A program made the position numbers and the translations under genes. DNA of 64,000 nucleotides from Protonemura montana (Eukaryota; Arthropoda; Insecta; Plecoptera; Nemouridae): NCBI GenBank assembly GCA_947568835.1, contig OX387606.1:11160001-11224000 (forward strand). Direction: 5' to 3'. Below are positions 29,301 through 63,784 of this stretch, one piece after another (position 1 is the stretch's first letter; each line of letters opens with the position of its first letter). The notes under the pieces are model-generated. The model saw only the letters and a list, made by a program, of their open reading frames with translations, ran no database searches and was not told the DNA's origin.

Positions 29301-32300
29301 CCCTTTCTCTCAGGGAAGTCATTACGATTGGTCCACTCAATGGTACCACGTAGCAAAAGGAAGAGTTTTTTTTCTTATTTTGCATCAAAGTATAACTCTG
29401 CGCTGGCGGATGTATTCAGGCATTGAGGTCACCGTCCTGGCGTGGTTCTAGTGGTTCCCGCTCTGACGTGGCGATGCGTGCGCTGGCAGGATTCCCGCCG
29501 ACGGCCGCCGAAAAAGCGCGTCTCGCCGTGCTCTCCGACGACCTCTCGACACCGACCACGGAGCCAGAGGTAAGTTCCGAACACCGTGGAGTACTTGGCT
29601 CAAACGGGACATCGACGACGACACTGTCGTGTACAACGCCAGCGCACAGTCATGGTGTACGTTGTCGTCACTCTAGATGCTTTGATTGGATGCTGTTTAC
29701 TATTGCAATCATCTCTAACTACATCTCTCTCATTCAGTCGTCCTTGGCCATCTCTCCCTGGTTGAGGCCCTCCAAGGGTCCTTAACATACCCAAGGCAGT
29801 TTGCCTATGGGCGCCCTGTTCCGATCAATGCTTGGTGCAAGGCCGTGCAGGAAGTACCATTTGCATCCATTGCTTTAAATTTACATGTAAATTCACTACC
29901 AATACGACGATGCTCTAATACAAAGTCACAGCAATTATCAAATGTTTACTTGTTGTTCATTTCACCGAACAGTATGCTAATTTTAGTTCTCAGATTCTGT
30001 AAATGTAATATCCCCTTGATCTCAAGCAAGTAGCTCCGTTCATTGTGTTTAACTTTCCTGCTGTTTTGTCCTTGTTCCTTTTCCCGCATACCATATATCA
30101 CGAACAGCAAAGTCATCACTCGTGGCAATCATGCGATCACAGCGATCATGCAATCATGAATCACAGACAAAGCTATTGAAAGTTGGGCGCCAATTGTAGG
30201 AGACTGGGATAGATTTCTGCAGCGAGCGCAGTCTGGTTGTGAGCATAAGTTGGTTGCAGATGGCTACTACCGACGACAGCTACGTGCTGCGACCTGGCGG
30301 CGGCGCAGACTCGTACAACATTCCGCAGCCGCACCCGCTGCCTATGCCCGAGTACGGAGGGTACTTCGCACCGCTCACTGAGTACCTACCCGACAGCTCG
30401 CAGCCCATTACCGGCTTCCACAGGTCAGTGACAGCGCCTTGCCACTTCAAAATTGCGTTCACAATCGACACTTTCATCTTCCTTCGAGTAGAGCCCTCTG
30501 TCAACAGAAGGCTTAAGCTCTTAGCCAAGTGCCAGTGCCAAAAAATTGTCTGTATAAACTTGAAAGCCACGAAGACCGAACGGTTTGGCGTGTTGGAAAC
30601 ATTGTTCCCCATGAGATCACCAAAGTTAAGCGACACTGCGCTGAGTCCGGTTTTGAATGTGTTATCGTCATGCACATGACCAGTTATGTTCGGGATAGAA
30701 GTTAGAGGGATGAGCGTTAGTACAGCAACTTCACTCGCCTTGCTTATCAACCTCCTGACAGCGTGGATTTGTGGGGGAATCCTGTTGTTCGCGTCGTACC
30801 GTCCTTCGGAAGGGACATTAAGCCGGTGGTCTCCTTGGTGCTCTTCGATAGGAGTAGTCTACATGGCGGCACCGGGTTTCCCCTCCTCCCTTCTAGGCTA
30901 AGTTAGGTTCATCATCATCCACATCATCATCTACTCATATACCGACGCCATTAGACCAGTGCCGCATGGCCAGATGTCAAAACAGTGTGTCATTAAACAC
31001 AATAATCAATTAATAATCATCAAAGCTATAGAGTGGTATCGATGCTAACCAAAGGAGTTCCATAGGGTATCTTTAGCGGTCCCATTGCCTGTGTTAACAT
31101 TTCACATTGCATGTTCAAATCCTATCCAAGCACTAAATAGGCCTAAATTATCCGACAAGAATTGCAAAATTTGCAATTGCAAACTGTAACTGTGGGTTTT
31201 ACGTGCACAGGTGCAATGTGGCGGTAATGCTGGTGACTGATGTTGTGGTGGATGGTGTCGATCTGGACTGGTCAATCCACGTTCCGCTGATGCTGCACAT
31301 CCTGTTCCTCGGTCTGGACCACACTCGGCCACTCGTGCACGAGCACTGCAAGCAGCTGCTGCTCAACCTGCTCGTAGTGCTGGCCGAACACAACGACCAT
31401 CTCACGGTAGCGCACGTGCTACTTAATGCCAAAACAGCTCGTCTTGGCCTGAAACTGGCCACGCCCGCACTTTCCGTGTTGCAGCACTCGTTCATCGGTG
31501 AGTTGGCAGCGTCGCTCAAGGGATGCTTTTCAAGTTAAAGCATTTCTTTCACTCTGCTCAGAAAACACAATGCTGTTTACATAGAGAATACTTTACTCAC
31601 AGAGGCCTGAACCACATGGTTTGCAAATAAGCCAAAGACCATTGCATTGCATAGATAGATTCTCTATGTTCTTTTTGTATTGTCAAGTTGTATTGGTGTT
31701 AAAACAGATTTCCTGTGGTGCTATCAAAGATGTAGTCTATGAAGTATGAACCAACATCATCTTTTCACTCACTTTAATACCCGATTGGTTCATCATTAAT
31801 TGTTTCTCCGCTCTATCATTCTCTACCTTTCGGTCTATCAAAAAAATAATATTTTTTTATGATTGAAGGTGTCATGAAACGTACCACCAATAAATTGACC
31901 CTCATGCCCACAGATGCCAACGCAGAGTTTGACAGCTACCTTACGGGTCCAGTGCCAACCTTGCCCCCGGCGCTGGGCTCGCCAACCGCAGGTCTGGGGC
32001 TAGACGGGGCCGGTGACTCAGTGGTACCGGCCCCCACTACCCCCGTGCCGCCCCCGGTTATCATCACTGCCCATGACGGGCAGCCTTGGAGCGAGCCCAC
32101 TCCAGGACCCAACATGCCCATCCAGGACGTTGTCAAGTCTCTCATTGACTTCCTGGCATCACGGTGAGTGGGTTTGCACTTCTACATGGCTCGTAAGAGT
32201 TTGGTAAAGCTGTACTTTGTCGGCATGGTGATCATATATCACACAGTGCTTGTTAGGACAGAAAATTAATGGGATTGAAGAAGTTAGAAAGATAGTAAAA

Positions 32301-63369: not shown

Positions 63370-63784
63370 CGCACTGATTTACTACAGCGACACTAATCGA
63401 ACGGCGTCAGAGAATGAGTGATTAATCATGACATATGAGAATGATGACGCACCGGTCCTAGAAGGGAGGAAAGAAGGAAAACCCGCGCTCCGTCCCTTAG
63501 CCTACTTCTGTAGCACCAAGTAAGACTTTTCGATTTGATTCCAAGGACTCGAAAAACAGAATTCCTCCACAAATGCATGCTATCGAGAGACTTGTCTCAC
63601 GGCGAGCAAAGCTGTTGTACTTAATTTAATTCTCTAACTTGTCTTCCGAACACAACTTCTCATAAATATTACCTAACCTAACCTTTCTCTAAGACCTAAC
63701 CCATCCAATAACTGACCCAGCGTAGTGTTGCTTAACTTCGGTGATTTCACGAGAACCGGTCTTTCCAACACGACAAACCGTTTG
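63341..63784 (-). repeat. 5S rRNA-headed SINE-like element, copy 3 (full length)
   Basis: On the minus strand it opens with 5S rRNA sequence (ACCGGTTCTCGTGAAATCAC, CGAAGTTAAGCAACACTACG and TTGGATGGGTTAGG). It continues with the body shared with copy 1 and ends in a TCAA/ATCA microsatellite tail (63341-63369). Its length of 444 bp is close to copy 1. Confidence 0.8.

Follow-up and report, generated by a model that had tools for sequence, protein, structure and literature searches.

The window analysed here is a stretch of 64,000 nucleotides of the plecopteran Protonemura montana (C4:11160001–11224000, in a genome of 258.5 Mb and 34 contigs; loci fetched from the genome are given L-numbers). 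It contains two similar genes for rhodopsin-type receptors on the minus strand (7447–8469 and 11783–12646, Pfam 7tm_1), a single-unit copy of a tRNA-Ser-like SINE (21655–21727, minus strand) and, on the plus strand, a frame with the Pfam domain MOR2-PAG1_C (Cell morphogenesis C-terminal, 33976–34341) which we take to be a furry-like gene. In addition, there are three loci which the initial annotation had described as copies of one SINE family headed by 5S rRNA sequence. Alignment of these loci confirmed that all three hold a common 5S-headed element; however, only copies 1 and 3 are SINE-like, whereas copy 2 is a fragment inside a larger dispersed repeat.

Copy 1 (30575–31024, plus strand) is full length with a single promoter unit and an AATCA-type tail, and copy 3 (63341–63784, minus strand) is a divergent full-length relative with a (TCAA)7 tail, so that the length of ~445 bp and the AATCA/TCAA-type terminal repeats ascribed to these two copies are correct. 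Copy 1 is ~10% diverged when compared with a consensus built from 29 full copies that have a single unit. Matches of copy 3 in the genome that cover at least 210 bases are only 68–74% identical, and 89–95% identity is reached for its first 84–86 bases alone; judged by these comparisons it is an old or divergent relative. Copy 2 (48511–48692, plus strand) comprises element positions 40–221. The repeat around it is longer than 1.2 kb, and its part in the window (47981–49212, plus strand) is 86% identical to L072 over 1,280 aligned columns. As the match extends on both sides of copy 2, this copy moved along with the larger repeat and has no insertion of its own.

None of the three copies in the window carries a tandem promoter array. 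The flanks of copy 1 show no clear target-site duplication (5 bp at best) and none was seen by eye at copy 3. Next to copy 3 lies a frame on the plus strand (63815–64000, continuing to C4:11224264) without Pfam match. In a search in which 150 of 2,360 candidate places were scored, it matched the final part of a reverse-transcriptase frame in L085 with 71% identity, and by this resemblance it is probably a LINE remnant.

A dispersed family with a 5S-like head

The 5S-like heads of copy 1 (30575–30695, plus strand) and copy 3 (63671–63777, minus strand) reach 36.6 bits (E 5.6e-06) and 26.8 bits (E 0.0023) with the Rfam model of 5S rRNA, RF00001, when short stretches are searched; both scores are below the gathering score of 38, and for copy 2 the model finds nothing up to E 1. 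At gathering scores, a search of the whole window yields two tRNA places only. The head had been regarded as partial 5S sequence. This description does not hold for L006, a well-kept copy outside the window, whose head covers the whole model from 1 to 120 with 59.9 bits (E 3.5e-12). The three-way junction of 5S rRNA is also the predicted fold of the L006 head (−46.1 kcal/mol, z −3.6, none of 200 shuffles as good). Compared with the genomic 5S gene, the fold has six changed-but-paired pairs where 4.3 are expected on average at random (fraction 0.24), three pairs changed on both sides (fraction 0.08) and nine broken pairs; neither count of paired changes is significant. The names and positions of box A, IE and box C in the head are assigned by us from the layout of 5S promoters. 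The promoter part is no more conserved than the rest of the element.

Genuine 5S genes, located by a DNA search with 5S sequence, are present in the genome and are 82–84% identical to the SINE head over 76–77 bases. Near the start of C11 (C11:72–105741, L038) such genes recur in a ~9.5-kb pattern, and a histone H2A gene adjoins one of them; this is probably a histone–5S cluster.

As had been supposed, the body recurs in the genome attached to 5S heads as a dispersed family. This is seen in the fetched loci as well as in the pattern that spans the end of the promoter unit and the beginning of the body, which matches 9,643 times genome-wide (at most three mismatches; reversed-pattern control 0). 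The 5′ end of full-length copies is mostly ACCG|AACGG or a sequence close to it and their 3′ end is (AAT)n or (AATCA)n, and the consensus of the 29 full single-unit copies is a short non-coding element of 440 bp with an ACCG start. We examined 103 distinct copies and fragments (L001–L028, L039–L083 and the window), 69 of which are almost complete at the 3′ end, start no later than position 120 and have usable flanks. An exact shared flank string of at least 8 bp was found in 27 of these 69 copies, compared with 1.2% of 4,692 mismatched pairs; six of the 69 are not independent, as they come from a duplicated segment that is present three times. The duplications counted are 8–15 bp long and variable in length, and they occur with a 91-bp junction between promoter units (13 of 30 copies) as well as without one (14 of 39). 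The target-site duplications that had been called for therefore exist in the family but are not clear at the window copies. By its head, ends, tail and target-site duplications the family is most likely a SINE3-type retrotransposon.

Divergence of the 29 full single-unit copies from their consensus ranges from 1.6 to 11.3% with a median of 3.9%. Recent activity, proposed before from the window, is plausible for the family, whose least diverged copies are at 1.6–2.5%. The window copies are not among the young ones: copy 1 is 10% diverged, copy 2 an embedded fragment and copy 3 divergent. Exact unit-to-body-end places among those listed on C1 are crowded toward the ends of this contig. Two exact element patterns had no match in viral contigs.

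Neither the 440-bp consensus nor the 91-bp promoter unit contains TTTT, the usual stop signal of RNA polymerase III, whereas 78% of the shuffled consensus sequences do; TTTT is present in 15 of the 29 single-unit copies themselves. Within the one LINE group searched, the SINE tail was matched at none of the 3′ ends of six LINE places, and no same-strand SINE tail was seen behind the frames of 12 loci.

Tandem promoter units in two SINE families

Tandem multiplication of the promoter is a distinctive trait of the 5S-headed family. The common unit of 91 bp comprises element positions 47–137, i.e., box A, IE, box C and 47 bp of the body, and a rarer unit of 92 bp comprises the head alone. With at most two mismatches the junction of 91-bp units occurs 26,138 times genome-wide and the junction of 92-bp units 2,344 times, the reversed control giving 0 in each case. 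The 100 exact 91-bp-junction places listed all lie on C1 and form 36 clusters by eye. Loci with 92-bp junctions are found in 52 of 59 cases within 6 Mb of a contig end (expected 41%); these 59 loci represent 88 of the 100 places listed, namely those on C1–C4, the remaining 12 on C5 being left out.

For a sample of individual copies we picked 20 evenly from the exact body-end places listed, all on C1 (for L076 a minus-strand neighbour was scored instead; both start at position 3 and have no junction). Four of the 20 copies are arrayed and hold together 15 junctions. Since these 0.75 junctions per copy are fewer than the genome-wide 2.7, arrays of greater length or bodies that the pattern misses because of their divergence must account for the difference. 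The share of arrays among L009–L028 is no estimate, because the first search favours heads. Most of the fetched arrays run into a SINE body, several of them with tail and target-site duplications, and bodyless arrays are found in L014, L024 and L028. An A at position 68 is present in 27 of 32 single units and in 75 of 187 arrayed units; by this sequence variant, single and arrayed copies are partly different subfamilies.

The tRNA-Ser-like SINE also forms tandem arrays, in this case of a 52-bp unit from its 5′ half with box A, for example, with 12 units in L048 (445–1067) and nine units in L045 (2657–3134). The 52-bp junction occurs 14,334 times genome-wide (at most three mismatches; control 0) and the end of the family with box B 5,640 times under the same limits, a number which could include true tRNA genes.

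LINE enzymes are capable of template jumping, and the arrays might be built by the reverse transcriptase itself, which would jump between SINE RNAs, from a 5′ end to an inner site or by microhomology, in any SINE with a polymerase III head. We regard this proposal as tentative, with odds of being right clearly below even. In its favour, two unrelated heads have similar ratios of junctions to ends, 26,138/9,643 or 2.7 in the 5S family and 14,334/5,640 or 2.5 in the tRNA family, though the mismatch limits differ (in the 5S family two for junctions and three for ends, in the tRNA family three for both), and the 92-bp and 52-bp units start at or beside the head's own 5′ end. Against it, the 91-bp junction connects two inner sites and involves no 5′ end.

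The positions of the 5′ ends are of interest in this respect. In the sample of 20 copies, 12 start at position 10 or before, seven at 85–112, as if the enzyme stalled at a hairpin arm, and one at 33. If truncation were even over positions 11–133, finding seven of eight in 85–112 would have a probability of 0.0002, and for the 13 truncated copies gathered from all loci, of which eight start in this range, p is 0.003, but the range was chosen after the data had been seen, which counts against using these values for the jumping proposal. The 5′ ends of L026, L064, L075, L078, L079, L080, L081 and L082 crowd at positions 87–110, at or just past box C. In the predicted 5S-like fold, positions 85–112 form the 3′ arm of a hairpin, helix IV/V in 5S numbering, which hints that the reverse transcriptase may stall on entry to this stable stem of the model. 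We also considered that these ends are starts of inner promoters; this explanation is at odds with copies that have one body, and stalling would fit better.

Probable inheritance of arrays through RNA and their change as DNA

L064, which starts at element position 99, holds seven junctions and then an intact body and tail, and a target-site duplication of 14 bp (AAACACTGGACTCC) encloses it. At least two units were most likely present in its template, because a single unit truncated at position 99 cannot supply positions 47–98. The truncation inside the array together with the duplication thus implies that arrayed RNA probably retrotransposes. Later gene conversion from another copy would be the way around this conclusion. 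L064 is the sole truncated array with a clear duplication noticed among the loci examined; L080 is also truncated inside its array and has no clear target-site duplication (4 bp).

A comparison of the units, in which 219 of 245 were kept, 187 of them arrayed, yielded a divergence of 4.7% within loci and 5.2% between loci. These similar values fit inherited arrays. However, the nearest neighbour of a unit is located in the same locus in 18% of the cases, compared with 3.2% expected, and blocks of units have been duplicated, with four units per block in L059 (lag-4 dip) and two in L064 (lag-2), so that arrays may owe much of their length to events that follow insertion. That arrays also change their length as DNA follows from L059, L060 and L063, in which one larger segment is duplicated and two SINE sites are shared: one SINE has 10, 10 and 9 units, respectively, and the other 13, 3 and 6, the SINE with three units being without head. 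In addition, the sequence AAGTTA occurs at positions 47–52 and 138–143, at both ends of the 91-bp unit, and the 91-bp junction could therefore arise repeatedly. No significant difference was found at five variable sites between last and other units or between first and middle units of an array.

Several of these observations would be expected if an ordinary SINE3 family carried a chance direct repeat which has grown like an unrelated minisatellite by slippage or unequal exchange at the DNA level, without a role in retrotransposition. The microhomology at both ends of the unit, the in-place differences in unit number between copies of one segment, the block duplications and the bodyless arrays all agree with such growth, and so does a tRNA-type array with 49 register steps (C1:1119330–1121904). 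L064, on the other hand, looks like an array that was already present in the retrotransposed template, and the divergence of units within a locus is hardly below that between loci. We consider pure minisatellite growth a serious competitor, though one that is rather improbable as the full explanation. The in-place changes at the same time count against the jumping of the enzyme as sole cause, as a DNA process is evidently acting too. Taken together, both inheritance through RNA and change at the DNA level probably act on the arrays.

A further alternative starts from pairs of arrays that face each other ~3.4 kb apart, seen at five places on C1 (L059–L063), and assumes a larger foldback-like DNA transposon as the source of the arrays, with the SINE as its derivative. 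The arms of L061 indeed reach 629 bp past the SINE with 97% identity. Nevertheless, three of the five fetched pairs (L059, L060 and L063) lie in copies of one duplicated segment, as judged from one shared outer flank (92–99.5%) and a shared inner sequence of 2.7 kb, and this weakens the foldback reading. L061 has none of this inner sequence in common and L062 ~1.3 kb of it. Long terminal inverted repeats do not bound every copy in 20 sampled stretches of 2.3 kb, 17 of which have no opposite-strand copy, and 27 of 69 copies carry target-site duplications of their own. A foldback origin thus appears highly improbable. In L059 (6713–7701), and also in L060, L062 and L063, there is a 148-bp tandem repeat which adjoins the SINE array in L059 and L063, lies a few bases off in L062 and further away in L060.

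The best explanation, to which we assign a probability of roughly two in three, is a SINE3-type family whose promoter segment has been tandemly multiplied in a share of the copies. Read from its sequence, the complete 5S-derived head would be a type 1 internal promoter of RNA polymerase III and drive transcription, and the element would be copied via RNA by the enzyme of a LINE, on which it presumably depends. Insertion of a template that carried an array best accounts for L064, and units have been gained or lost in place in the duplicated loci.

Related systems and possible role of the arrays

Tandem repeats derived from 5S sequence are known as satellite DNA of fish and frogs. In contrast to these, most fetched arrays described here enter a SINE body and several have a tail and target-site duplications. 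The LTR elements Ajax and Cassandra are, like the present family, mobile elements which took over the 5S promoter; as far as described in the accessible parts of the source (PMC10886601), they have LTRs and Ajax makes 5-bp target duplications, whereas here no LTR was seen and the duplications are 8–15 bp long.

The insect SINE3 families HaSE3, PxSE4, PxSE5, CsSE2 and SINE3-1_TC provide a further comparison, one that is based on descriptions and not on sequences. In the accessible parts of the respective papers (PMC8010984; PMC3272025; PMC10886601) SINE3 families are described, like the family here, as having a head derived from 5S sequence (box A, IE and box C) joined to a body, with short-repeat tails in several families, target-site duplications in several and copy numbers from hundreds to thousands. 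These parts do not speak of a tandemly multiplied head, and neither PMC8010984 nor PMC3272025 uses the word “tandem” in its main text. HaSE3 and PxSE5 are described there as having 3′ ends in common with LINEs, whereas no such LINE was found here in the one LINE group searched. Among titles and abstract beginnings of the openly licensed literature, we found neither a SINE with tandem 5S promoters nor a description of this family.

The retrotransposon L1 of the mouse (L1Md), too, carries tandem promoter units in varying number at its 5′ end, and duplication of its monomers is said, in the part of the report available, to preserve promoters through truncation-prone copying (PMC6454616). Mouse L1 is, according to the accessible text of a further report, an autonomous LINE with a polymerase II promoter (PMC11602158). 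Its monomers are ~200 bp long. The 5S-headed family differs from it in being non-coding and in having units of 91 or 92 bp with promoter sequence of the polymerase III type.

By analogy with the mouse L1 monomers, multiplied promoters could let 5′-truncated insertions of the 5S-headed family retain a complete promoter. Normally, loss of the 5′ end deprives a SINE of its promoter. In addition, the inner promoters would presumably gain a defined and constant upstream neighbour from the preceding unit. In the view of Kapitonov and Jurka, as quoted in the accessible part of the HaSE3 report (PMC3272025), 5S promoters that have been retroposed depend on upstream signals and for this reason are silent or weak. 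The idea of spare promoters fits the 5S family better than the tRNA family, because the upstream units of the latter are without box B.

It is conceivable, though on balance unlikely, that a general copying process builds tandem polymerase III promoter arrays in unrelated SINEs with 5S or tRNA heads, maybe by stalling and jumping of the reverse transcriptase at structured heads, that the array lengths are then reshaped as DNA, and that the 5S arrays serve as spare promoters for truncated insertions and would thus be the polymerase III counterpart of the mouse L1 monomers. The multiplied 5S promoter is in any case a trait that goes beyond the SINE family recognized by the initial annotation, and the nearest parallel known to us is found in mouse L1, an unrelated element. 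A SINE in which complete internal promoter segments are present a dozen times would be a natural test of promoter loss by truncation and of upstream dependence, and the similar arrays of the tRNA-headed SINE in this genome could help to find out whether tandem heads are a product of the copying enzyme.
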